The notes below the pieces were generated by a model. The model was given only the letters and a program-made list of their open reading frames with translations, did no database searches and had not been told where the DNA came from. From NCBI GenBank assembly GCA_040752815.1, contig JBFMGC010000023.1:1-44865 (forward strand): a stretch of 44,865 bases of DNA, in the 5' to 3' direction. The position numbers were made by a program, and so were the translations under genes. This document shows positions 5,768 to 43,308 of this stretch, in pieces (position 1 is the stretch's first letter; the number at the start of each line of letters is the position of its first letter). The DNA comes from Candidatus Zixiibacteriota bacterium. GTDB taxonomy: Bacteria > Zixibacteria > MSB-5A5 > GN15 > FEB-12.

Positions 5768-6721
5768 ATGATCACAACTCGACTGACTTCCGCTCGGACC
5801 GTGCGCCGCCGTGAACTTACCGCGCACACGGTGACCATCGTTCTTATTACGCTCTTGTCTCTTCCACTTAAGGGCGAGGAACCGGCCGTTGATGACGGCA
5901 GCTGTCTTTCCTGCCACGAGGAATATGATGCCGGGTTAGCAAGAACTGCCCATGCACTCGGACCTACGGGCAGCGGCAAAGTCTGGTGTGTATCCTGTCA
6001 TGAGGGTGGCCAGATACATTTAGAAGATCCGACTAAAGACAATATCACTAATCCGAGCCGGATGGTTGGCGCGGAAGCGCGGGCTGTATGCTCAGCCTGT
6101 CACGACGCCCACAAGCAGCTCGATGATTCTGGTTTCGACGTTCACTCCCAGCAGCAGCTTAACTGCGCCAGTTGCCACAAGGTGCATGGCGGATCGGCGG
6201 CGCTTCTGCTGAGCGATCGCGCCGAGTTTTGTCGACCCTGCCATGAAGATGTTGTCGGCTCGATGCATCGCCGCTCGCAACACCCGGTGAATCAGCGGGC
6301 TGTTACCTGTTTAAGTTGTCATAGCTTTGTCAAGAGGTCAGACCATGGTGTGGCCTATGACCAGGCGCGTGTTTGCCAGAGTTGTCATCCGGTCCAAAGC
6401 GGTCCGTTTCCGTACGAACATCCCGCAACGAGCGCGTCTCTGGTCGAAGGGGGCAGTTGCCTTGAGTGTCATGCGCCGCACAGCAGCGAGAATGACCGCT
6501 TGCTGCGCCAGCCCGGAGCGGCGCTGTGCAGACAGTGTCACGTCGAACCGCCGGGCCATCGCAATCTACCGGCCCTGCACGGATTCGTGCGCGATATCGA
6601 GGACTGTTTCGCATGTCACACCGGCGTACACGGTTCGATGACGAGTCACAAACTGCTTGACCCGATGCTGCAGGCCCGGCTGGGCAGCCCGCAGGATTGC
6701 ACTCAGTGTCACGAACTATAA
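5768..6721 (+). CDS. Periplasmic 11-haem c-type cytochrome, MtrA/DmsE-like
   Basis: The 317-residue protein has a basic N-terminus and hydrophobic segment (TVTIVLITLLSLPL) that fit a Sec signal peptide. It then has eleven CXXCH haem-binding motifs: CLSCH, CVSCH, CSACH, CASCH, CRPCH, CLSCH, CQSCH, CLECH, CRQCH, CFACH and CTQCH. Dense evenly spaced haems in a protein of this size are typical of MtrA/DmsE/PioA decahaem cytochromes, which insert into an outer-membrane barrel and carry electrons across it. The next gene, 19 bases downstream, encodes such a barrel, and the third an additional multihaem cytochrome. The family normally has ten haems; here one more is present. Donor and acceptor are not shown by the sequence. 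Confidence 0.85.
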   Translation: MITTRLTSARTVRRRELTAHTVTIVLITLLSLPLKGEEPAVDDGSCLSCHEEYDAGLARTAHALGPTGSGKVWCVSCHEGGQIHLEDPTKDNITNPSRMVGAEARAVCSACHDAHKQLDDSGFDVHSQQQLNCASCHKVHGGSAALLLSDRAEFCRPCHEDVVGSMHRRSQHPVNQRAVTCLSCHSFVKRSDHGVAYDQARVCQSCHPVQSGPFPYEHPATSASLVEGGSCLECHAPHSSENDRLLRQPGAALCRQCHVEPPGHRNLPALHGFVRDIEDCFACHTGVHGSMTSHKLLDPMLQARLGSPQDCTQCHEL

Positions 6722-6740
6722 GACTGGGGTGCGGAGAGCA

Positions 6741-8360
6741 ATGAACAGGACAGAGTGTCGAACAAGACATAGCATCAGTTGCCTTCCGGTGATCATCATG
6801 ATCGGCTTGCTGCCATTCAAATCGCTGGCATCGGCAGGCTCGGGCACCGTCAAAGCCGGATACCTATTTACCGATGAAGTGGGTGACCGTGCTCTGAACC
6901 AGGAAACATTCAATGTCTATTCCGGAATGGGGCTCTCACTGGAACGGTTTTCATTCCAGTTTCAAAACGGCGTAAGGGTGACATCTGATCTGACGGACCT
7001 GACTCTAAACAACCGCAACCTGACATTCGGAATCGAGAAAACCGGCAAGTTCCGCCTGGACCTGCATAACGATCAGTATAGGAGATTCTACGACTTTGAG
7101 GGTGGTCGGTTTACAAGGCGACGCACCACGAGCGCACAACTCTCCGTCCGGCCGATCCGCGAAGTGGAGTTGTACGGCGGCGTTTACCTGATTGACCGTC
7201 ACGGCGACTATCAGGACGCGCTTGCGGTGACCAGAGGCATTGCGCCAATGGACTTCCGCTACTCCACCGTGACCACCGGGGCACACGTCGCCCACCGGGG
7301 GAGAAACATCGATGTGTCTTATCAGCGTTTCAAACTGACCCAGGAGATTCAGTCCGACCCGTCGCAGGTTGATCGAACCGCAGACGCTTTCCGTTTCGAC
7401 GCTTCCACTCCGGTGCCGAAACTTGATCAGGTCTCTCTCTCCGGCGGATATCAATATCGAAAGGACTACGGCGATCTTCCCGGTGAGATAAAGACCAATC
7501 TCGGCTGGGGAGCGGCAAGGTGGGACCTCCCCCGCGATTATCAACTCGAGTATCGCCTGGTATTCGCCCGCACCGATCAGACTACTTTGGACAGGGAGAC
7601 GGACAACGCCACCAACACCGTCACCATCGGTAAACTCTGGCGCACCGGATATGGGATCAGGGTGGGTTACGAAAACCGGATCGCCGATGATCTGACCAAT
7701 CGAACCGAAGCGCACGGTCTCCTTGTATCTACCTGGGGACGCATTGGCGCCCGCTTCACCGCGAAGGCGTCAGCTTCGTTTCTGGACAAAGATGTGGTCG
7801 ACGGAACGACTCTTACAGGCGATCAGTCCTCCAGTCGCTTTAAGATCTCCGGACGCTATTCGGTCCCTGAATACGGCGACCTGTGCGTTCAGTGGTCCAG
7901 CCGGGTGACCACGCACGATCCGGTGCCGGTTCTACGTGATTCGGCGGGATACGAGAGCACTGAAACCCGCGTTGATTACCAGGTCTGGTCGACGGTGGCC
8001 AACATCAAAGTCAAGCGTCTTGGCTCAGTCAATGTGTCGTATGCTTACTATGTAGGGGAATACCAGAACAACAGCCGTGGTGTGAATTATGAGTTCTCAG
8101 ACCATATAGTTCAGGGATCGGTGCATCCCAGGCGGTACGAGAACATCGAAGTATCGGCGAGGGGTGTCTATTACCGGAGCCGCCGTGATCAGAATGCTGA
8201 GAAATTCAGCGTCGGCTTCGACGCCGCCTATTTCCTCAAGGACGACTACGTGTTGGGTGCGTCCTATGACGCCTTCAATGCCGACGATCTGCTGTTTGTC
8301 GGCCAGTACTATACCGCAAACATCGTTAGAGTTTATATCGCCAGAAACGTGACGTTTTAA
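6741..8360 (+). CDS. Outer-membrane beta-barrel of a porin-cytochrome conduit (MtrB/PioB-like)
   Basis: The chosen ATG has GGAGAG just upstream; an earlier in-frame start at 6657 would overlap the cytochrome gene and lacks a signal peptide at the right place. The 539-residue product has a signal peptide (about 12-33, ending SLASA). It is then built of alternating polar/hydrophobic strands rich in Tyr, Arg and Asp, ending in ...YIARNVTF, the terminal aromatic typical of outer-membrane barrels. Family assignment rests mainly on context: it sits between an 11-haem periplasmic cytochrome and an 8-haem probable lipoprotein, the gene order of Mtr/Pcc conduits. MtrB proteins are usually somewhat longer (about 650-700 residues), so this is a compact or distant member. 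Confidence 0.75.
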   Translation: MNRTECRTRHSISCLPVIIMIGLLPFKSLASAGSGTVKAGYLFTDEVGDRALNQETFNVYSGMGLSLERFSFQFQNGVRVTSDLTDLTLNNRNLTFGIEKTGKFRLDLHNDQYRRFYDFEGGRFTRRRTTSAQLSVRPIREVELYGGVYLIDRHGDYQDALAVTRGIAPMDFRYSTVTTGAHVAHRGRNIDVSYQRFKLTQEIQSDPSQVDRTADAFRFDASTPVPKLDQVSLSGGYQYRKDYGDLPGEIKTNLGWGAARWDLPRDYQLEYRLVFARTDQTTLDRETDNATNTVTIGKLWRTGYGIRVGYENRIADDLTNRTEAHGLLVSTWGRIGARFTAKASASFLDKDVVDGTTLTGDQSSSRFKISGRYSVPEYGDLCVQWSSRVTTHDPVPVLRDSAGYESTETRVDYQVWSTVANIKVKRLGSVNVSYAYYVGEYQNNSRGVNYEFSDHIVQGSVHPRRYENIEVSARGVYYRSRRDQNAEKFSVGFDAAYFLKDDYVLGASYDAFNADDLLFVGQYYTANIVRVYIARNVTF

Positions 8361-8375
8361 GATAGTGAGGATGAT

Positions 8376-9572
8376 ATGCGTACCAAGTTAATCTGGTTGA
8401 CAGGGCTTCTGCTCGCGGCGCTGCTGATGCAGTTCGGGTGCGAGCGCAAGACGGTCACGACCACTGAAGTGATCAAGGAGGTGAGTCCGCAAGATGCGGC
8501 GTATGTCGGCAGCGCCGAATGCGGCACCTCAGGTTGCCATGAGGGTGTGCTCGCGACGTTTCGCAACACCGGGCATCCCTACAAACTGAATGACGCCGAC
8601 TCGGCCAGGTTGCCGGTCGGCCAATACTACCCGTTCACGTCGGTCCCGAATCCCTCCGATGTCAGTTGGGATAACATCTCGATGGTGATCGGGGGCTTTT
8701 GGTGGAAAGCGCGCTATATCGACAATGAGGGGTACATCCTCACCGGCGCTAACCGCCAGTACAACTTTGAAACCCAGCAATTTGTCTCTTACGATGCAGC
8801 CACGGCGCCGCGCAAACCGTACGACTGTGGACCGTGCCATATGACCAATTATGTGGATACGGGCCATCAGGGAGGCCTGCCAGGTCTGGTGGGTACCTGG
8901 ACATTCAACGGGGTTCAGTGCGAGGAATGCCATGGTCCGGGCGAATTCCATGCCGCCGAGCCATATAAGTTTGCGATGGAGATCGATCGATCATCGGAGG
9001 CGTGTGGCAAATGCCATATAAGAGGCAGCGTACAGAAGATTCCTGCGAAGAGCGGCTGGGTCGAACATCACGAACAATGGAACGAGATGTTCCGCACCAA
9101 GCATGCCGCGCTGGAATGCGTGGACTGCCATAATCCTCATATAGGACTGCATGCCGATAATCCGGAGCGAGAATCCGCGATAAAAGTGGCGTGTGAAAGT
9201 TGCCACCTCGCGGAGACCCAGGGCTTTCTGGCCAGTGGGATAGGCCATGCGGCAAGTGAGGCCGGTCCGGATTGTATCGATTGCCACATGGCTAAAACCG
9301 GTAAGTCGGCGGTCGCTAATGCTACCACGTTTACTGGCGATGTGCGCAGTCATAGCTGGACGATCAACATGGATCCGAACGCGGCGATGTTCACCCAAGA
9401 TGGACTTTTCGCCAACGGCTATATCACGCTTGACTTTGCCTGTCTGCAGTGCCACACATCAGAAACCAAGGAGTGGGCTGCGACCTATGCCCCGCTCGTT
9501 CACACTCCGATTGGATCTCCGTCTAGTGGCGATTTCTCGCAACTGGCAAGTTCAACCTTGAAGGGTCACTGA
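8376..9572 (+). CDS. Octahaem c-type cytochrome, probable outer-membrane lipoprotein
   Basis: The 398-residue protein begins with a short basic and hydrophobic signal ending LLMQFGC, a lipobox-like site whose -3 residue is not canonical. Haem motifs are CGTSGCH (CX4CH), CGPCH, CEECH, CGKCH, CVDCH, CESCH, CIDCH and CLQCH: seven standard plus one CX4CH. The VQCEECHGPG region resembles cytochrome c554-type multihaem proteins. It lies 15 bases after the barrel gene and is followed by a strong terminator, so it closes the operon. By analogy with MtrC or OmcB it could be the outer-surface terminal reductase or oxidase of the conduit. A periplasmic location is the alternative if the lipobox is not used. 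Confidence 0.8.
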   Translation: MRTKLIWLTGLLLAALLMQFGCERKTVTTTEVIKEVSPQDAAYVGSAECGTSGCHEGVLATFRNTGHPYKLNDADSARLPVGQYYPFTSVPNPSDVSWDNISMVIGGFWWKARYIDNEGYILTGANRQYNFETQQFVSYDAATAPRKPYDCGPCHMTNYVDTGHQGGLPGLVGTWTFNGVQCEECHGPGEFHAAEPYKFAMEIDRSSEACGKCHIRGSVQKIPAKSGWVEHHEQWNEMFRTKHAALECVDCHNPHIGLHADNPERESAIKVACESCHLAETQGFLASGIGHAASEAGPDCIDCHMAKTGKSAVANATTFTGDVRSHSWTINMDPNAAMFTQDGLFANGYITLDFACLQCHTSETKEWAATYAPLVHTPIGSPSSGDFSQLASSTLKGH

Positions 9573-30032: not shown

Positions 30033-31382
30033 TTACATCATAAGGGCGCGAAACACGACATCATGTACCCCGCCGATCACAACGTCGCGATTATGGTGCT
30101 CCATTAGCTGCGCCAACTGACGCTTGCAATTCGAACAGGGGGCGGCGCAGAATTTCGCGCCGGTGTCATCGATCTGTTTCAGTTTCATCTTGCCCGATAC
30201 TTCCATCCGAAAAGCCTTGATTTCGTCCATGGCCGACAGGCCGCCACCCCCGCCGCAACACCAGTTCAAGTGGCGGTTGGGGGTCATCTCGCGGAAATCG
30301 GCGCAGGCCGCTCTCATGATGATTCGCGGCTCTTCCACAATTCCACAGCTGCGGCCGAAGTTGCAGGGATCGTGATAAGTAACCGGTTCGGGATTCGCGC
30401 TCCGGTCGAACCGGAGGGCGCCCCGCTTCACCATGTCGGCCGTGTACTGAAGGACATTGGTGATCTCGAAAGGCAAATCGCCCCACCATTTCCCCTTTTC
30501 CATCATGAATTTCATGATCCGGTGAGCATGCCCGCATTCGCCCATCATGAGGGTGTTGCAGCCGAGCCGCTTAGCCTCGTCGATGTACAGCTTGTTGTCC
30601 TCTTTCATCGACTTGTCGTCGCCCGTGAACAGGCCGTAGTTGGCTCCGTCAAAGGCTCTCGAACTAAGCGTCCAACTCTGTCCCAGCTTGTGAAAAACTT
30701 TGGCGATGCCCATGACCGCCTCGGGATTTACGAGGAGATCGCCCGACGGCGGCACGAAGAAGATTTCCGCGCCCATCTCGTCGTACGGTATGCGGACGTC
30801 TATGCTGCACTGGTCCTTGATTTCTTCTTCGAGAAAACGCACGGTATCTTTCAGCGCGGCCTCATTGGCGCCATCGGTATTTCCGGTTTCCAGCGATATT
30901 TTGACCACTCTTTGCAATCGTTCCGGGGTCCAGCCCAGGCCATCGGCGATCGCCCTGCCCTTGCGCGTGATCACCGAGTTGTCGATACCCATGGGGCAGA
31001 AGGTGGCGCAGCGGCGGCATCCCGTACACTCGTAGAAAGCAGTGACAAAGCGCTCCATATCGCCGTTGAAATCCTGAGCGCCGACTGCAGAACCAAAGAG
31101 CTTTCCTGAGGTTGTGCAGTGTCGCTTGTAGACGCCGCGCACCAGGTCGGAGCGCCTAACCGGGTTGCGCAATTCGGTCGGCTCACCGTGATAGACCGGA
31201 CACACCTCGGCGCACGTACCGCAGCGAATGCAGGTTTCCATGTAGAGCCGAAGAGCTTTTGGCCCTCCGCGGATCGCCCGGCAGGCGGCGGTGACGGACT
31301 GTTTGAGTGCCTCGCCCTGCACTTTGGGGCGGAGGAGCGGCTCGCTTCTTAGCGTTGATACCGGAACTTCCGAGTGTGACAT
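30033..31382 (-). CDS. tmcB: HdrD-like iron-sulfur subunit, TmcB/DsrK family
   Basis: The 449-residue cytoplasmic protein has two [4Fe-4S] ferredoxin motifs, C51/C54/C57...C61 (CIRCGTCAEVCP) and C119/C122/C125...C129 (CTGCRRCATFCP). Two heterodisulfide-reductase cysteine-rich (CCG) regions follow, ending YHDPCNFGRSCG, NWCCGGGGG and CAAPCSNCKRQ. This is the HdrD plan shared by DsrK and TmcB, which pass electrons between a membrane cytochrome b and a thiol/disulfide protein such as DsrC. Length is nearer TmcB than DsrK (about 540). ATG 31382 is preferred over GTG 31385. It follows the cytochrome b gene by 15 bases and dsrC-like lies upstream in the same direction. The symbol is tentative. Confidence 0.8.
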   Translation of the reverse strand: MSHSEVPVSTLRSEPLLRPKVQGEALKQSVTAACRAIRGGPKALRLYMETCIRCGTCAEVCPVYHGEPTELRNPVRRSDLVRGVYKRHCTTSGKLFGSAVGAQDFNGDMERFVTAFYECTGCRRCATFCPMGIDNSVITRKGRAIADGLGWTPERLQRVVKISLETGNTDGANEAALKDTVRFLEEEIKDQCSIDVRIPYDEMGAEIFFVPPSGDLLVNPEAVMGIAKVFHKLGQSWTLSSRAFDGANYGLFTGDDKSMKEDNKLYIDEAKRLGCNTLMMGECGHAHRIMKFMMEKGKWWGDLPFEITNVLQYTADMVKRGALRFDRSANPEPVTYHDPCNFGRSCGIVEEPRIIMRAACADFREMTPNRHLNWCCGGGGGLSAMDEIKAFRMEVSGKMKLKQIDDTGAKFCAAPCSNCKRQLAQLMEHHNRDVVIGGVHDVVFRALMM

Positions 31383-31397
31383 CACGCACCTGCCTTT

Positions 31398-32096
31398 CTA
31401 AGCTCTCTGAATCAAGGTTTGAGTGAAGAAGATTCCTCCCAGATGCAGAATCTTGCTGAACGGGAGAAACACGAACAGGAGCTGGGCCAGCAGGAAGTGC
31501 AGCGTGAACATCGGGCTGCCCGGCAGCGACTCTGCGCTTAGCGAGAACCCGGCCAGTTGCGAGAAGTACCGGCGGGTCAGCTCCAGGTTGAAGTGTTCGC
31601 CGAAGCGCAAGGCGTTGCCGGTAACGAGTACGGCAATTATGAGCAGCAGAACCAGCGTGTCGGCAAAATTGGTAACCTCCCTTACGCGTCGAATCGCCAG
31701 GCGCCGGGCCAGGAGGACAAGGGCCATGGCCAGGATTAGCAGCCCGGCGGTTCCACCGCTTATTGCGCTCATGCGGTCGGCGTTGATTCCGAGTGCCGCC
31801 CACAGGCCGGGGAAATCTGTGAACACGCGTATGTGGCCTACGACGATCAGCGCGAGCGTGGCATGAAATATCCACGCCGACGCCCAGAGAAACTTGTCAC
31901 CGAGGAACAAACCGGGGAAGAACAAGGACTCCCTGAACACTCCCCAGAACGTAGCCGCCTTTCCGACCGGGGCGGGGAAGAGGGTGATCGCGGCGGGTTG
32001 GGGCGTTTTGATCCAGACGCGGATGCGATAAGCCATCGCCGGGATGAAAACCAGTAATGTCAAATAGGGTAAGAACCCGAGGATAAAGAATTCCAC
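31398..32096 (-). CDS. tmcC: Membrane cytochrome b subunit, TmcC/DsrM (NarI-like)
   Basis: The 232-residue protein has five to six membrane helices and no ferredoxin domain. Its haem ligands are probably H78/H88 in IFHATLALIVVGHIRVF and H200/H218 in LHFLLAQLLFVFLPFSKILH, the two-His-per-helix pattern of NarI/DsrM cytochromes b. It would exchange electrons with menaquinol and the adjoining HdrD-like subunit. Start is GTG with AAGGAA about 9 bases upstream. It is shorter than DsrM (about 330) and matches TmcC size. A GC-rich inverted pair GGCCGGC/GCCGGCC lies in the 90-base gap after dsrC-like (about 32129-32157). The symbol is tentative. Confidence 0.8.
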   Translation of the reverse strand: MEFFILGFLPYLTLLVFIPAMAYRIRVWIKTPQPAAITLFPAPVGKAATFWGVFRESLFFPGLFLGDKFLWASAWIFHATLALIVVGHIRVFTDFPGLWAALGINADRMSAISGGTAGLLILAMALVLLARRLAIRRVREVTNFADTLVLLLIIAVLVTGNALRFGEHFNLELTRRYFSQLAGFSLSAESLPGSPMFTLHFLLAQLLFVFLPFSKILHLGGIFFTQTLIQRA

Positions 32097-32186: not shown

Positions 32187-32501
32187 TCAAAGACAACCGT
32201 GTGGTCTTGGCAAGCCCGCCAGGCGATACGCCCCCCGGGCGACTCCGCACGGGAACATCTGGCAGACATAGCGGGAACTGAAGCCGGTTGCCTTGCAGAT
32301 GCGCACGATCGGCGGCCCTTCGCCGGTTTCGACGTAGTAGCTTCTCACGAAGTCGATCACTTTCCAGTGGTCCTCGGTCAAGGGATCGATGTCGTTCTTG
32401 CGTGCCAGCTCCTCGGCCACCTCACGTGTCCAGAGCGACATCTGTTTAAGAAAGCCGTCGTTGTCCTCGATGCTTCCCGACGGCATAGCGGCTTGTACCA
32501 T
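32187..32501 (-). CDS. DsrC/TusE-family protein lacking the upstream redox cysteine
   Basis: This 104-residue protein has the family length and helix-turn-helix core (DPLTEDHWKVIDFVRSYYVETGEGPPIVRI) and the conserved arm GLPRPHGCL. The penultimate Cys103 (CysA) is present. The residue eleven before it, which is CysB in true DsrC, is Tyr92 (RGAYRLAGLPRP). The codon is TAT on the coding strand, so this is not a translation slip. Two other cysteines stand nearby, C80 and C85 (YVCQMFPCG). DsrC carries sulfite-derived sulfur as a CysA-CysB trisulfide; proteins with CysA only are classed with TusE. Next to TmcBC-like genes a redox partner role is expected, but the chemistry must differ. Start fixed by AGGAG 6 bases upstream. 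Confidence 0.85.
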   Translation of the reverse strand: MVQAAMPSGSIEDNDGFLKQMSLWTREVAEELARKNDIDPLTEDHWKVIDFVRSYYVETGEGPPIVRICKATGFSSRYVCQMFPCGVARGAYRLAGLPRPHGCL

Positions 32502-32823
32502 GACAACTCCTGTTATAGAGGCGTTAGCTATCGTCCGCGCTGAAACCCGGGCGGCAGCAAATGGATTCGCGATTGGCGATCTTGCGATGGGCGCCGGCGC
32601 CCCGCGCACCGGGGCGGGAGTTGACCGGCAAGGCAAAAGACGTATATTATGGACCAAGAAGAGCGGCCGCCGGGCCGAGGCCCGGCCGGTTGCTGCTTCG
32701 CGACGCGACTTGGCGGGTCGGTTTTAAGCTGCTGATCCCGCCGAGTTGCGTTCTTTTTCTTTCGTCTGTGTCCTGCCGGCTCCTGCGTCCGGCTGCCCTC
32801 GAATCCTCCTTTCTGTCCTCGCT
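32502..32823. other. Gap between the HTH regulator and dsrC-like gene
   Basis: No gene is seen. A 7-bp GC hairpin (32669-32675 with 32680-32686) could slow transcription leaving the regulator gene but lacks a U-tract. On the plus strand TTGACC (32621-32626) and TATTAT (32645-32650) are 18 bases apart, which would fire antisense to the regulator; nothing supports its use. No copy of the qmoA/dsrA operator is visible here. Confidence 0.35.
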
Positions 32824-33654
32824 TCAGTGCGTGGACAGGTGGCTATCGCCCGACGAGCTTTGTGCCTGACGCCGGGATCCGGCTATCAGCGCCATCAATG
32901 TCGAGGCGTCAAAACTCGAATCGACCACCGCGAATACAAGACGATCGCATTCATCCGGCAAATCGCTACGTTTGCCGACCAGTATAATTCTGACGAACGG
33001 GATGCGGGGGTCCTCATATATGAGCCGGGCAAACTCCAGACTTCGCTCCGCACCCAGGGAGCAGTCGATCACCATGTAATCGGGCCGGAATTCCTCGACA
33101 CACATCGAGCAACGGTATTCGCAATCGGTCACTTTCAGGTTGAATCGCGAGGGGTCTATCCCCTCGCGCATTCGTGTGGTAAAGGCGTCGCGGTTCGACA
33201 CGACCAACACATTCGGCCGCTGGCCGACTACACGTGCGTAGTAGTCGCACTCCTGACACGATCCTTTGCAGAACAAACCGACATACCCGGCCTGCGCGGG
33301 AAGATCGTGCAACTCGTAACAGCGGAGCGTGCCCGAGCGATATACGATACACTCGCGGCAGCCGTCGGGGATGCGGCCATCGGTGGAATTGAACTCCCAG
33401 CAATACTGAAATCGCGCCGGGCTGTCAGGCGTGGGTAAGGTCACCGGCCGGCCCTCGAGAACCGGCGCCAATGCCGAGCGCGGCACGCGATGGTGCCCGC
33501 CCGGCGTGCGCAGCGCTTCGATTTTGCCTGATCTTATCCACTTTAAGACCGTGTCCGAGGTCACCCGGCAAAGGGCCGCTGCTTCGCCGGTCGAGAGCAA
33601 GTCGGAGCGCGCTTCAGCTATAGGGGATCTTCTATTGATGCTGGGTCGTGACAT
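32824..33654 (-). CDS. Cys-rich transcription factor: MerR/excisionase-type HTH plus receiver-like domain
   Basis: The 276-residue protein starts with a winged HTH of the excisionase/MerR type (about 18-62: LLSTGEAAALCRVTSDTVLK then TPGGHHRVPRSAL). A central Cys-rich block follows with C85, C99, C102, C112, C129, C133 and C136, enough for an Fe-S cluster or zinc sites. The last part (about 147-260) resembles a response-regulator receiver (NVLVVSNRDAF, PDYMVIDCS with D197, IILVGKRSD) and carries another trio C178/C182/C185. I do not know a characterised homologue. Position between the dsrC-tmc and qmo operons suggests a redox- or sulfur-responsive regulator of them. The ribosome binding site is weak. 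Confidence 0.65.
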   Translation of the reverse strand: MSRPSINRRSPIAEARSDLLSTGEAAALCRVTSDTVLKWIRSGKIEALRTPGGHHRVPRSALAPVLEGRPVTLPTPDSPARFQYCWEFNSTDGRIPDGCRECIVYRSGTLRCYELHDLPAQAGYVGLFCKGSCQECDYYARVVGQRPNVLVVSNRDAFTTRMREGIDPSRFNLKVTDCEYRCSMCVEEFRPDYMVIDCSLGAERSLEFARLIYEDPRIPFVRIILVGKRSDLPDECDRLVFAVVDSSFDASTLMALIAGSRRQAQSSSGDSHLSTH

Positions 33655-34135: not shown

Positions 34136-34195
34136 CGACAGACCCCTTGATACGGACTGTTGTGCGAACGATGTGGTGATATAGGGAGTTTCCAG

Positions 34196-35482
34196 ATGGC
34201 CTACTTTGAACCTTCGGTCGGCACCGACGAGCATATCAAAGCGGACACGCTGGTGGTAGGCGGCGGTATCGCCGGCATGACCACGGCAATCGAAACCGCC
34301 GAGCTCGGTCGGCATGTCGTGCTCGTCGAACGGGAACCGTCGATAGGCGGCCGGGTAGCCGCTATGAATCAGTATTTTCCCAAGCTCTGCCCACCGCAAT
34401 GTGGTATTGAGATTAACCTCAAACGGATGCGCATCAATCCGTTCATCCGCGTGCTTACCCTTGCCGATATCGAAAGCGTCTCCGGCAAACCCGGCGATTT
34501 CGATATCCGCCTGCGTCTGAAGCCGCGCTTCGTAAACGAGCGGTGCAACGCCTGCGGCGATTGCGAGAAGGTGTGCGAGATCGAGCGCGAAGACACCTTC
34601 AACTACGGCTTGAAGAACACCAAGGCGATTTACCTTCCGCACCAGTTGGCGTATCCGTACCGATATGTGGTCGATCCGCAATACGTGTCAGACGACCGCA
34701 TGAAAAAGTGTGTGGAGGCCTGCCAATACGGGGCGATTGATCTCGGTATGAAGGCCCGCACCGTGACGGTCAAGGCCAAGGCGGTAGTGTGGGCGACCGG
34801 GTGGCGGCCCTACGATGCCGCCCGGCTGGACAATCTCGGATTCGGCAAATTCCGCAATGTGGTCACGAATGTCATGATGGAGCGGATTGCATCGCCGACC
34901 GGTCCAACCGAAGGGAGAGTAGTGCGGCCCTCGGACGGAGCTAATATCGCCAGGATCGGTTTCGTGCAGTGCGCCGGATCGCGCGACGAAAAACACCTGC
35001 CGTACTGTTCGGCGGTTTGCTGTCTGGCGTCGATGAAACAAGCCACTTACGTGAGAGCGCAGTACCCCGAGGCGGAGATACATATGTTCTATATCGATGT
35101 CCGCTCGCCGGGACGCATGGAAGATTTCTACACGAAAATGCAGCAGGACCAGAAGTTCTACTTCCATCGAGGCAAGGTGGCGAAAGTCACGGAGAACCCG
35201 GCCAACGGAAATGTTATCCTCGAGGCGGAAAACACGCTTACTGGTCAAATAACCAGTACCGAAGTTGAAATGGCGGTGCTGGCGGTAGGGATGGTGCCGA
35301 ACAGCGCCGACAATCCACCGCCGCTCGATACAACGCGTGACGAATTCGGCTTCGTAGTAAATGATCATGGGCGCGGCGTAATCGGCGCCGGCACGACTGT
35401 GCGGCCGTTCGATGTCGCCTGTTCAGTGCAGGATGCCACCGGCGCGGCCCTGAAGGCGATTAACGCGGGCGGAGGGAGGTAA
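34196..35482 (+). CDS. qmoA: QmoA, flavin/Fe-S subunit of quinone-interacting oxidoreductase
   Basis: The 428-residue HdrA-like flavoprotein belongs to the complex that carries electrons from menaquinol to APS reductase during sulfate reduction. It has an FAD dinucleotide motif (LVVGGGIAGMTTAIETAELG, about 20-40) and IGGRVAAMNQYFPKLCPPQCG typical of QmoA. One [4Fe-4S] motif is CNACGDCEKVCE, and conserved segments include IGFVQCAGSRDEKHLPYCSAVCC and LAVGMVPN. Start 34196 is set by AGGGAG 8 bases upstream. QmoB follows after 5 bases. The promoter upstream is strong and shares an operator with dsrA. Its length is normal. Confidence 0.95.
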   Translation: MAYFEPSVGTDEHIKADTLVVGGGIAGMTTAIETAELGRHVVLVEREPSIGGRVAAMNQYFPKLCPPQCGIEINLKRMRINPFIRVLTLADIESVSGKPGDFDIRLRLKPRFVNERCNACGDCEKVCEIEREDTFNYGLKNTKAIYLPHQLAYPYRYVVDPQYVSDDRMKKCVEACQYGAIDLGMKARTVTVKAKAVVWATGWRPYDAARLDNLGFGKFRNVVTNVMMERIASPTGPTEGRVVRPSDGANIARIGFVQCAGSRDEKHLPYCSAVCCLASMKQATYVRAQYPEAEIHMFYIDVRSPGRMEDFYTKMQQDQKFYFHRGKVAKVTENPANGNVILEAENTLTGQITSTEVEMAVLAVGMVPNSADNPPPLDTTRDEFGFVVNDHGRGVIGAGTTVRPFDVACSVQDATGAALKAINAGGGR

Positions 35483-35487
35483 GAGCG

Positions 35488-37749
35488 ATGGAACCGAAAA
35501 CCGGTGTTTATATCTGCAGGGGATGTGATATCGCCAAATCGATAGATTGCGACAAACTGGTTAAAGTCGCCACCGAAGAGGCCAAGGCTGAAGTGGTCAA
35601 GGTCTGCGACATTCTGTGCGGACAAGAGGGCATCAATCTCATTAGAGGCGATATCAAAAACCAGGGAATCAATCGTGTGGTAGTGGCGGCCTGTTCGACG
35701 AGGGTTTTCCCGGAGCTGTTTGATTTCGGTAAGGACGTGCTGGTCGACCGCACCCCCCTGCGCGAGCAAGTGGCGTGGTGTCACCCGCCAAATCACGAAG
35801 ACACCCAGATGCTGGCGGAGGACTACGTCCGCATGGGTGTAGCTAAAGTCAAAGCAACCGAGCCGCCTGAGCCGCTGATCGAGAAGACAAGCAAGGACGT
35901 ACTGGTTATCGGCGGCGGAATGACCGGACTGACCGCGGCGAAGGCGGCCGCCGATGCCGGATACATAGTCACGTTGGTCGAGAGAGAGGCGAATCTCGGC
36001 GGCTGGGCCAACCGGTTCAAGAAGATCTTCCCCAAGCAACCGCCGTATCGTGAACTGGAAGACATCGGACTTCCGGAATTGATCGAACAGGTCGAGCATC
36101 ACCAGAACATCACGGTGCGGAAGTCGACGGAAGTCGCGAAAACAGCCGGCCAGCCGGGGAAGTTCACGGTCGCGCTCCAGAACGGAGGTCAGGCCGAAGA
36201 GCTCACAGTCGGTTCGATCATACTCGCCACTGGATGGAAACCGTACGAAGCGGAGAAGCTGGTGCATCTTGGGTATGGGTCATCTCCCAATATCATTACC
36301 AATGTCGCGATGGAGGAGATGGCTGCCAACGGCGGAATCAAACGGCCGTCTGATGGTAAGCCGATCGATAGCATCGCGTTCATCCAATGCGCCGGTTCGC
36401 GCGATCGAGATCATCTGCCATACTGCTCGGCGGTGTGCTGCCGTGTCTCGCTAAAGCAGGCACTCTACGTCCGGGAGCAGTATCCCAACGCGAAGATCTA
36501 CATTATTTACAAAGACCTCCGCTCGCCCGCTCAGTACGAACGATTTTATGCACGGGTGCAGGACGACGACGCGGTGTTCTTCACCAAGGGTGAGATTGCG
36601 TCGGTGTCCTCAGACGCGGACGGCAAAATCGCCGTTGACGTGAAAGAGACTCTTCTCGGCGAGGATATTCGCATCAAGGCGGACATGGTCGTGCTGGCAG
36701 CAGGCATGGTGCCGTCGACCAAGGTCCCTGATGAGTTAGTAGAGGCCGCCAAGCGGGCTGCCGAACCACAGCAGCAAGGAGCCGAACAGCCGCAAACGGC
36801 CACCACTGCTGACGGCAAAAAAGAAGCAGCCGGGGCCGAGCTTGGGGCGAAGATACTCAATCTGGCCTATCGCCAGGGAACCGACCTACCGACTCTCAAA
36901 TACGGCTTTCCGGATTCGCATTTTATCTGTTTCCCATACGAAACCCGTCGCACGGCTATCTATGCCGCGGGTGCAGTAAGAGCGCCAATGGATTTCTCTT
37001 CGGGAGCGAATGACGCTTACGGCGCCGCCATGAAGGCGATCCAGGCGGTCGAGGCGATCTCCCAGGGGCGATCGCTGCATCCCAGGGCAGGTGATCTGAG
37101 TTATCCGGACTTCTTCCTACAACGCTGCACGCAGTGCAAACGGTGCACGGAGGAGTGCCCGTTCGGAGCGCTCGACGAGGACGACAAGGGTACACCCAAG
37201 CCCAATCCACTCAGGTGCCGCCGCTGCGGTGTCTGTATGGGCGCCTGCCCGGAGCGGATTGTCTCGTTCAAGAACTACAACATTAACATGGTCTCACAGA
37301 TTATCAAGGCAATTAACATCCCGGACGAATTCGAAGAAAAACCGCGCATTCTCGCGTTCGTGTGCGAGAACGACGCCATGCCGGCGCTTGACGCCGCCGC
37401 CATGAAGCGGCTGCAGTACAACGCCATGCTGCGCATTATTCCGCTGCGGTGTCTCGGTTCCATGAACACGGTGTGGATCAGCGACGCGCTGGCGTCGGGA
37501 TTCGACGGCGTGATTCTGCTCGGCTGCCGCAAGGGTGACGAGTACCAGTGCCATTTCATCCGCGGCTCCGAACTGGCCGAATACCGTATGGGGAACGTGC
37601 GCGAGAAGTTGAAGCAACTGGTTCTCGAAGAAGAGCGGGTGTTGGTGCAGGAAGTTTCGATTGTTGATGGGGACAAGATCCCGAAGATATTCGATGATTT
37701 CCTGGCGACAATAGAGTCGGTCGGCCCGAATCCGTACAAGGGAATGTAG
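35488..37749 (+). CDS. qmoB: QmoB, HdrA-like subunit with MvhD-like C-terminal domain
   Basis: The 753-residue protein has an N-terminal cysteine region (YICRGCDIAKSIDCDK). It then has an FAD domain (LVIGGGMTGLTAAKAAADAG, about 138-157, with LGGWANRFKKIFPKQPPYRE). Two [4Fe-4S] motifs, CTQCKRCTEECPFG (near 546) and CRRCGVCMGACPERI (near 576), follow. An MvhD/FrhD-delta-like domain (about 624-735: FVCENDAMPA, RCLGSMNTVW, LLGCRKGDEYQCHF) comes last. This domain order is diagnostic of QmoB. A Gln/Ala/Thr-rich linker (about 421-451) separates the FAD and Fe-S parts. The gene is followed by a terminator, and no qmoC is present downstream. Confidence 0.95.
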   Translation: MEPKTGVYICRGCDIAKSIDCDKLVKVATEEAKAEVVKVCDILCGQEGINLIRGDIKNQGINRVVVAACSTRVFPELFDFGKDVLVDRTPLREQVAWCHPPNHEDTQMLAEDYVRMGVAKVKATEPPEPLIEKTSKDVLVIGGGMTGLTAAKAAADAGYIVTLVEREANLGGWANRFKKIFPKQPPYRELEDIGLPELIEQVEHHQNITVRKSTEVAKTAGQPGKFTVALQNGGQAEELTVGSIILATGWKPYEAEKLVHLGYGSSPNIITNVAMEEMAANGGIKRPSDGKPIDSIAFIQCAGSRDRDHLPYCSAVCCRVSLKQALYVREQYPNAKIYIIYKDLRSPAQYERFYARVQDDDAVFFTKGEIASVSSDADGKIAVDVKETLLGEDIRIKADMVVLAAGMVPSTKVPDELVEAAKRAAEPQQQGAEQPQTATTADGKKEAAGAELGAKILNLAYRQGTDLPTLKYGFPDSHFICFPYETRRTAIYAAGAVRAPMDFSSGANDAYGAAMKAIQAVEAISQGRSLHPRAGDLSYPDFFLQRCTQCKRCTEECPFGALDEDDKGTPKPNPLRCRRCGVCMGACPERIVSFKNYNINMVSQIIKAINIPDEFEEKPRILAFVCENDAMPALDAAAMKRLQYNAMLRIIPLRCLGSMNTVWISDALASGFDGVILLGCRKGDEYQCHFIRGSELAEYRMGNVREKLKQLVLEEERVLVQEVSIVDGDKIPKIFDDFLATIESVGPNPYKGM

Positions 37750-40841: not shown

Positions 40842-40972
40842 AACTTCGGCCGACGGCTCGTCCGCTTCTGACAGGTGGTTGTCAGGCCTCACGGGAGCGC
40901 CGACCGCAGCCTTTTCCGGCGATGTGGATAACTAAGCGACTCTAAGATACTCAATCAGATTCAGGAGCTATG

Positions 40973-42187
40973 ATGGCAAACGCATTTCCGAAAACTCCCA
41001 AGCTCGACGAGCTTGAGAAGGGTAAATGGCCAAGCTTCGTAACCGAGATCAAAATGGCGGCCAGAAAGAACCCGATGAGTCGGGACCTTCTGGGGCTGCT
41101 GGAACGGTCATACGACGAAAAGCTCGGCCACTGGAAACATGGGGGGATTGTCGGGGTGATGGGATATGGTGGCGGCGTTATCGGCCGGTACTCCGACCTG
41201 CCGGACGAGTACCCGAATATATCGCACTTTCATACGATGCGTATCAATCAGCCCGCCGGCTGGTTTTACACCAGCGATGCCCTGCGCAAGATCTGTGACA
41301 TTTGGGAGAAGCACGGTTCGGGTCTTACCAACATGCACGGCTCGACCGGCGACATAATTCTGCTGGGGACCAGCACCGATCATCTCGAGCCGGTCTTCTC
41401 CGAACTGCAGAAAATCGATTTCGATATCGGCGGTTCCGGGTCGGATGTACGTACGCCGAGCTGCTGCTGCGGCATGGCGCGGTGCGAGTGGGCCTGCTAT
41501 GACACGATGGCTGCCTGCTATGACTTTACCATGGCGTTCCAGGACGAAATCCACCGCCCGGCGTTCCCGTACAAATTCAAGTTCAAATTCTCCGGATGCC
41601 CGAACGACTGTGTGGCGTCGATTGCGCGTGCCGACATGTCAATTATCGGCACCTGGCGCGACAACATCCAGGTCGACCAGGCGGCAGTCAAAGAATACGC
41701 CGACAAAGGCATGAACATCCAACGCGACGTAGTGGGCAATTGTCCTGCCAAGTGCATGGACTGGGACGGCAAGCAGCTCAAGATCGAGAACGCTTATTGC
41801 CGTCGCTGCATGCATTGTATCAATGCTCTGCCCAAGGCTCTGGCTCCCGGTAAGGACCGTGGTGCCACCGTACTACTCGGTTCAAAGGCGCCGATTGTCG
41901 AAGGCGCATTGCTGTCTTCGGTGCTCATACCGTTCGTGAAGATGGAGCCACCCTACCAGGAGATCAAGGATGTGATTGAGAACATCTGGGAAATCTGGTG
42001 CGAGGAAGGCAAGAACCGCGAGCGCGTGGGTGAGTTCATCCAGCGCGTGGGCATGGGCAATTTCCTCGAAGCGATCGGCCTGGAGCCGACGCCCGAGATG
42101 GTGGCGCATCCGCGCGAGAACCCCTACGTCTTCTATGAAGAGTATTTCGAGGAAGATGAGGGCGAGACGGAAGCCGCCAAGGCCTGA
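40973..42187 (+). CDS. dsrA: Dissimilatory sulfite reductase alpha subunit
   Basis: This 404-residue subunit of the sirohaem enzyme reduces sulfite to a sulfur bound on DsrC. Sirohaem-[4Fe-4S] ligands are visible as C165...C171 (CCCGMARC) and C209...C213 (SGCPNDC). An inserted ferredoxin domain carries CPAKC and YCRRCMHC (about 257-283). The N-terminal [20 protein letters not shown] and [17 protein letters not shown] segments are typical. ATG 40973 is 5 bases from AGGAG; the ATG at 40970 is only 2 bases away and less likely. dsrB follows after 38 bases. The dsrD gene in the same operon argues for the reductive rather than the sulfur-oxidising type. Confidence 0.97.
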
Positions 42188-42225
42188 ACCTGAACCCGGA
42201 AACGAAGAAAAGCAAAGGATACCAT

Positions 42226-43308
42226 ATGGCTGATGTGATGCAAGACCGGCGGACCGACTACGGACCGCCTCATTACGAGCAGTTCCTGCCGCCGATCATC
42301 AAGGAAAACTACGGCAAGTGGAAGTACCACGAAGTGCTCAAGCCGGGCGTGATGGTGCACGTGTCGCATTCCGGCGCGAAGCTCTACACCGTCCGGGCGG
42401 CGTCGAGTCGACTGCTCAGTATCGACAAGATCAGGATGTATTGTGACCTGGCCGACAAATACTGCGGCGGCCATTTGAGATTTACCAGCCGCCACAATGT
42501 CGAGTTTCTCACGGACAAGTTTGAAAATATCGAACCGCTTATCAAAGACCTGAAAGCGATCGGTCACCCGGTGGGCGGGATCGGCAACTCGATCTCGGCG
42601 ATTGTCCACACCCAGGGCTGGATTCACTGCCACTCGGCGGCCACCGATGCGTCGGGGATTGTCAAGGCGGTCATGGATGATGTGATCGATCACTTCGAGA
42701 ACATGAAACTGCCGGGCAAGCTGCGGATTGCTCTCGCCTGCTGCCTGAATATGTGCGGTGCGGTGCACTGTTCCGATATCGCCATTCTCGGTATCCACCG
42801 CCGTCCGCCGCGCATTCAGCACGACAAGGTCAAGAAGATGTGCGAGATACCGAACGTGAGCGCCTCCTGCCCGACCGCAGCGATTCGGCCGGCGCGGGTT
42901 GGCGGTCACGAGTCGATCGAGATTATCGAAGAACAGTGCATGTTCTGTGCGAACTGCTTTACGGTCTGTCCGGCGCTGCCGATTGCCGACCCGCTGAACG
43001 ATGGTGTATCGATCTGGGTGGGCGGCAAGGTGTCGAATGCGCGGCACGAGCCGATGTTCTCCAAGCTGGCGATTCCGTTCCTGCCGAACAATCCGCCGCG
43101 CTGGCCCGAGGTGACGACGGCCATTTCCAATCTGGTCGAACTGTGGGCGGCCAACGCTCGCAAGTATGAGCGGATGGGCGAGTGGATCGAGCGCATCGGC
43201 TGGCCGAAGTTCTTCAAGATGGCCGGAATCGAGTTCCAGAAGGAGCATATCGACGACTTCAAGCATGCCGGCTTGACCTATAAGCGCTCAACGCATCTAA
43301 CTTTCTAA
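42226..43308 (+). CDS. dsrB: Dissimilatory sulfite reductase beta subunit
   Basis: The 360-residue partner of DsrA in the alpha2beta2 core has the conserved [34 protein letters not shown] and [18 protein letters not shown] (starting near 172). [17 protein letters not shown] follows, then a ferredoxin domain ([19 protein letters not shown]). The C-terminal segment ending THLTF matches the family. It lies between dsrA and dsrD, with AAGGA before its ATG. Length and motifs are intact. Confidence 0.97.

Follow-up and report, generated by a model that had tools for sequence, protein, structure and literature searches.

Background

It is accepted that DsrC function centres on a CysA-CysB trisulfide. 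Canonical DsrC takes up sulfur on CysA and forms with CysB a trisulfide that is reduced by DsrMK (PMC10504309; PMC6470260), and HdrD-like complexes have been postulated as DsrC partners (PMC6470260). In the DsrC of A. vinosum, sulfur binds at CysA only and its transfer is independent of CysB (PMC3397948). At the CysB position, proteins of the TusE type have Ala, Ser or Thr, and the genomes that encode them lack DsrAB (PMC3397948).

Here we analyzed a contig of 44,865 nucleotides from a Candidatus Zixiibacteriota genome (this whole stretch is hereafter called the window), in which an earlier note, made from the sequence alone, had pointed out a DsrC homologue devoid of CysB. The features of this locus are listed in Table 1.

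Table 1. Features of the DsrC variant and of its cassette, with positions in the window
Feature	Position	Strand	Remarks
Predicted DsrC-fold variant, 104 aa; CysA kept, CysB replaced by Tyr92, additional C80 and C85	32187..32501	(-)	
C80 codon TGC	32262..32264	(-)	Conserved in 19/19 variants; Tyr or Asn in canonical DsrC
C85 codon TGC	32247..32249	(-)	Conserved in 19/19 variants; Ser/Thr/Gln in canonical DsrC
Tyr92 codon TAT, CysB column	32226..32228	(-)	
C103 codon TGT, CysA, penultimate residue	32193..32195	(-)	
AGGAG, putative ribosome-binding site of the DsrC variant	32507..32511	(-)	Sequence; 5 nt before ATG
NarI/DsrM-type cytochrome b, 232 aa, four conserved His	31398..32096	(-)	PF02665 and alignment
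DsrK/HdrD-like iron-sulfur protein, two 4Fe-4S motifs, one full CCG motif (CX..CCGGGGG..CxxC)	30033..31385	(-)	
Cassette regulator: MerR-type HTH, Cys-rich middle, receiver-like C-terminal domain	32824..33654	(-)	Domain searches, synteny

A DsrC homologue with tyrosine in place of CysB

The variant is encoded on the minus strand, a detail that the earlier note had left unsaid, and the frame read from the plus strand over the same positions is meaningless. Its product scored above the cut-offs of both the Pfam DsrC family (PF04358; 97.4 bits against 24.9) and the TusE/DsrC/DsvC superfamily model TIGR03342 (86 bits against 53.5). Since the alignment to DsrC runs without gaps through the arm, Tyr92 falls exactly in the CysB column, which together with the TGT and TAT codons bears out the claim of the earlier note that CysA is kept and CysB is replaced. 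The penultimate position, where dissimilatory DsrC carries CysA, is occupied by C103, whereas the position eleven residues before it, where CysB would complete the CX10C pattern, is Tyr92 here and Tyr or Phe in all variants. Because CysB is absent, an intramolecular CysA-CysB trisulfide is impossible in this protein. The AlphaFold model (mean pLDDT 76.5, falling to about 49 at the end of the arm, which is poorly predicted) superimposed on 2v4j_C, the DsrC of the D. vulgaris DsrABC crystal, with a TM score of 0.82 (Z 15.8 over 99 residues, rmsd 1.8), so that the variant is predicted to adopt the DsrC fold.

The earlier note had described CysA-only members of the family as TusE-like, but the variant is not a TusE. 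The TusE equivalog model NF008562 gave 61.6 bits against a cut-off of 191, the CysB residue is Tyr92 instead of Ala, Ser or Thr, and dsrAB are present in the window; the TusE assignment was therefore rejected on score, CysB residue and gene context. The variant is a member of the DsrC/TusE superfamily that departs from dissimilatory DsrC at CysB, and from TusE in both score and residue.

A single clade of variants across uncultured lineages

At least 19 variant homologues, from Zixibacteria and from genomes labelled as several other phyla, share the signature ICxLFPCG...[Y/F]RLAGLPRPxGC. C80, C85 and C103 are invariant in 19/19 of them, a count affected by ascertainment bias in that one of the two peptide patterns of the genome-wide scan contained C80/C85; the Pfam-based and regulator-based searches recovered variants without relying on these residues. 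Position 92 is Tyr in 18 variants and Phe in one. Conversely, C80 or C85 occurred in 0/39 DsrC comparators (36 locus proteins and three PDB sequences). The two cysteines that the earlier note had seen just before the arm are thus a family trait, and their strong conservation makes its suggestion of a redox partner plausible. The variants formed a single clade (support 100/99), for which SH-aLRT support was still 98 after removal of columns 80, 85, 92 and 103.

A Pfam search covering the window genome together with 60 relatives, 61 genomes in all, retrieved four orthologues with the same residues in other genera, and a degenerate DNA pattern retrieved four further variants within the class. The genome-wide scan added variants labelled Zixiibacteriota, Myxococcota, Acidobacteriota, Chitinivibrionia, Latescibacterota, LCP-89, Planctomycetota and Elusimicrobia, along with a Calditrichaeota-labelled one cut off at a contig end, labels that come from metagenome bins and may carry binning errors (three of the bins derive from one groundwater sample). 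Every member comes from an uncultured genome. A search of plasmids returned TusE-like matches only. The Tyr92 codon is both TAT and TAC among variants of different phyla, which speaks against the sequencing error that the earlier note had considered. One variant (L165, G139:C4:84631-84924) contains a single in-frame TAG at a site of Lys, Arg or Glu in its homologues, in an otherwise intact cassette.

The variant belongs to a conserved cassette

The cassette starts with the regulator gene, followed by those of the DsrC variant, the cytochrome b and the DsrK-like protein, all on one strand, and recurs in unrelated surroundings. Order and strand were the same in nearly every complete cassette. 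Of the few incomplete ones, L048, L050 and L061 are truncated by the ends of their contigs, and others are missing an intact regulator: none turned up in the extracted L056 and L080 loci, and L057 and, at the place of L080, G125 yielded fragments only. The regulator has invariant cysteines and is a near-constant member. Within the window, the variant is separated by 90 bp from the cytochrome b gene and the latter by 12 bp from the HdrD/DsrK-like gene. Both neighbours named by the earlier note do lie beside the variant, but its placement directly upstream of the HdrD-like gene was loose because the cytochrome b gene sits between them. The conserved synteny suggests that these genes form an operon and that their products are physical partners.

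As for the identity of the pair, the DsrK-like protein scored 346 bits with the DsrK model (cut-off 400) and 232 with TmcB (cut-off 735), and the cytochrome b scored 79 bits with DsrM (cut-off 300) and 32 with TmcC (cut-off 240). By comparison, the genome's own DsrK and DsrM, on contig C55, reached 714 and 520 bits. A TmcBC assignment, to which the earlier note had pointed by calling the genes TmcBC-like, was rejected on these scores; the neighbours are nearer to DsrK/DsrM than to TmcB/TmcC, yet they lie under every equivalog cut-off. The CCG site of the DsrK-like protein has a complete CxxC, whereas the true DsrK of the same genome has Asp at the last cysteine. The four conserved His of the cytochrome b are presumably ligands for two hemes.

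Because the cysteine change recurs with the same neighbours in sulfite-reducing bacteria of many phyla, we regard the cassette as a conserved redox module rather than the product of a sequencing error. The module is apparently undescribed: none of the CC-licensed papers searched describes it, although key reviews may mention it.

A paralogue of the regulator heads a second conserved cluster (L128:7742-13083 on contig C31 of the window genome; similar in L121, L122, L124, L126, L129, L130, L133 and L135). This cluster encodes a macro-domain protein, a 225-aa protein without Pfam match, a CCG/HdrD-like protein fused to a receiver domain, a PAS histidine kinase and, often, a receiver protein.

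Coexistence with dsrAB and canonical DsrC

The description of the surroundings as a dsr-bearing region was confirmed by dsrAB at 40970-43308 of the window, 8.5 kb from the variant. The window genome (3.19 Mb, listed as 100% complete) yielded exactly two DsrC matches, namely the variant and a canonical protein on C55 (...GACKVAGLAKPTGCV) that has both cysteines. The second DsrC for which the earlier note had proposed a search is thus present, and the variant is not the only DsrC of its genome. The canonical gene adjoins a DsrL-looking flavoprotein (identified by eye); DsrMK are also encoded on C55, and AprA is present outside the window. Given canonical DsrC, DsrMK, DsrAB and AprA in one genome, the variant is neither the main DsrC nor TusE.

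The same association was observed elsewhere. We detected dsrA in 14/15 other cassette genomes and, within the phylum, in 9/9 variant-bearing genomes versus 47/132 overall (hypergeometric p 5e-5, relatedness ignored). A canonical CysA-CysB DsrC was found in 15/15 cassette genomes examined and in the four relatives from the Pfam search, so the variant is an addition to the canonical system.

Other redox genes were also observed in the window. A pair of HdrA-like flavoproteins resembling QmoA and QmoB, of which the second carries an FlpD/MvhD-like domain, is encoded at 34160-37749, divergent from the cassette and between it and dsrAB. Judging by the sequence, multiheme cytochrome c genes flank an outer-membrane porin-like protein at 5768-9572, an arrangement suggestive of an extracellular electron transfer conduit.

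Proposed function and alternatives

CysA is kept, the CysA-CysB trisulfide is impossible and two new invariant cysteines precede the last helix; for these reasons our preferred reading, held with moderate confidence, is that the variant is a paralogous thiol/disulfide (or persulfide) carrier for its own quinone-linked DsrMK-type complex, with C85/C80 replacing CysB. The small membrane complex would consist of the two-heme cytochrome b and the DsrK-like CCG iron-sulfur protein. CysA, on its mobile arm, would carry sulfane sulfur or form a mixed disulfide, C85, just before the last helix, would act as the resolving thiol in place of CysB, and C80 would be the second thiol of a CX4C pair with C85. 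The CCG cluster in the DsrK-like subunit would then undergo exchange with this disulfide and link it to the quinone pool, and the co-encoded Cys-rich regulator would control the module. C80 and C85 could instead have a metal-binding or structural role.

A structural role for both cysteines is also assumed if the variant is a TusE-like single-thiol relay that hands on a persulfide from CysA. The behaviour of A. vinosum DsrC provides a precedent, a CysA-only arm is the hallmark of TusE, and the variants stand beside four TusE-like rows in the tree (95/83), although this join is between long branches. Those four rows, however, lack C80/C85, and the score and CysB residue given above, as well as the tie of the variant to dsrAB genomes and to the cytochrome b/DsrK-like pair, make such a relay rather unlikely.

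Another type of DsrC protein accompanies many cassettes. Downstream sequence was present for about 17 cassettes, and in 10 of them a two-domain tandem DsrC follows the DsrK-like gene, sometimes after an extra gene (e.g., an Rrf2 regulator in L054). Both of its domains keep the CysB-type cysteine (GAC[RK]) and lack the CysA arm, so that the cysteine losses of the two proteins are exactly complementary. The CysA of the variant might therefore pair with the CysB of a tandem or canonical DsrC in an intermolecular disulfide or trisulfide reduced by the DsrK-like subunit. We consider this split arrangement unlikely: a tandem DsrC is absent from the window genome and does not adjoin the cassette in several others, the Pfam search found tandem proteins without the variant in many genomes, and C80/C85 would be left unexplained. 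Its absence from the window genome also led us to reject the tandem DsrC as a requirement for the cassette.

Tandem proteins with two domains (three in one case), no CysA arm and mostly one CysB-type cysteine per domain were encountered at L036:6686-7339, L045:6395-7486, L049:6660-7322, L065:5962-6618 and many other places, and Zixibacteria relatives encode several of them per genome. At L065:5962-8839, the tandem gene lies directly 5' of one for a 736-aa protein in which a class-V aminotransferase of the cysteine desulfurase type is fused to an AIRS/AIRS_C (SelD-like) part, which suggests a sulfur or selenium relay.

The constancy of the regulator, with its invariant cysteines and receiver-like domain, would also fit a sensor module in which the variant and the DsrK-like/cytochrome b proteins signal quinone or thiol redox state to it, and its paralogue does adjoin a CCG protein-receiver fusion and a PAS histidine kinase. 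The DsrK-like protein of the cassette, however, lacks a receiver and, with its complete CCG motif, looks catalytic. A kinase is not regularly encoded nearby, and the cytochrome b provides a respiratory link; signalling as the main task is quite unlikely. Lastly, a decaying or mis-sequenced paralogue without function, for which the in-frame TAG of the G139 member might speak, is extremely improbable given the synonymous Tyr92 codons and the motif and synteny conserved across phyla, and this conservation led us to reject sequencing error or a pseudogene for the family as a whole.

A conserved DsrC lineage that is tied to DsrAB, never has CysB, invariably carries two further cysteines and comes with a DsrMK-like pair of its own would mean that many uncultured lineages of the sulfur cycle have adapted the DsrC scaffold to a second redox role. 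Annotation pipelines that score any PF04358/TIGR03342 match as DsrC would also have to be corrected. More speculatively, and with considerable doubt on our part, the cassette may represent another DsrC-type respiration or relay module that has spread horizontally and works alongside DsrC-DsrMKJOP. Its resolving cysteine would then have moved to C85/C80, the CysB-only tandem DsrC would complement roughly half of the cassettes, and a quinone-linked protein heterodisulfide/persulfide cycle would operate, distinct from the trisulfide cycle.

Comparison with known systems

Canonical DsrC, the CysA/CysB sulfur carrier (D. vulgaris 2v4j_C; A. fulgidus 1sau), shares with the variant its predicted fold, arm length, CysA, the GLP[RK]PxGC arm and an occurrence in dsrAB genomes. 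On the other hand, the variant has Tyr/Phe for CysB, C80 and C85 in addition and V/I for P87, and it forms a separate clade, as a paralogue of the canonical DsrC in the same genome. TusE likewise has CysA only, but it differs in its residue at CysB, in the lack of C80/C85 and in its gene context.

As regards the neighbouring pair, DsrMK (and DsrMK2 paralogues) similarly combine a CCG iron-sulfur protein with a two-heme cytochrome b. The cytochrome b of the cassette is shorter (232 versus about 330 aa), both subunits score below the DsrK/DsrM cut-offs, and the cassette has its own DsrC variant and regulator, with no J/O/P genes seen beside it. TmcBC and HmcEF also pair an HdrD-like subunit with a cytochrome b; in contrast to them, no TmcA cytochrome c3 or TmcD was seen next to the cassette, and its proteins score far under the TmcB, TmcC, HmcF and HmcE cut-offs.
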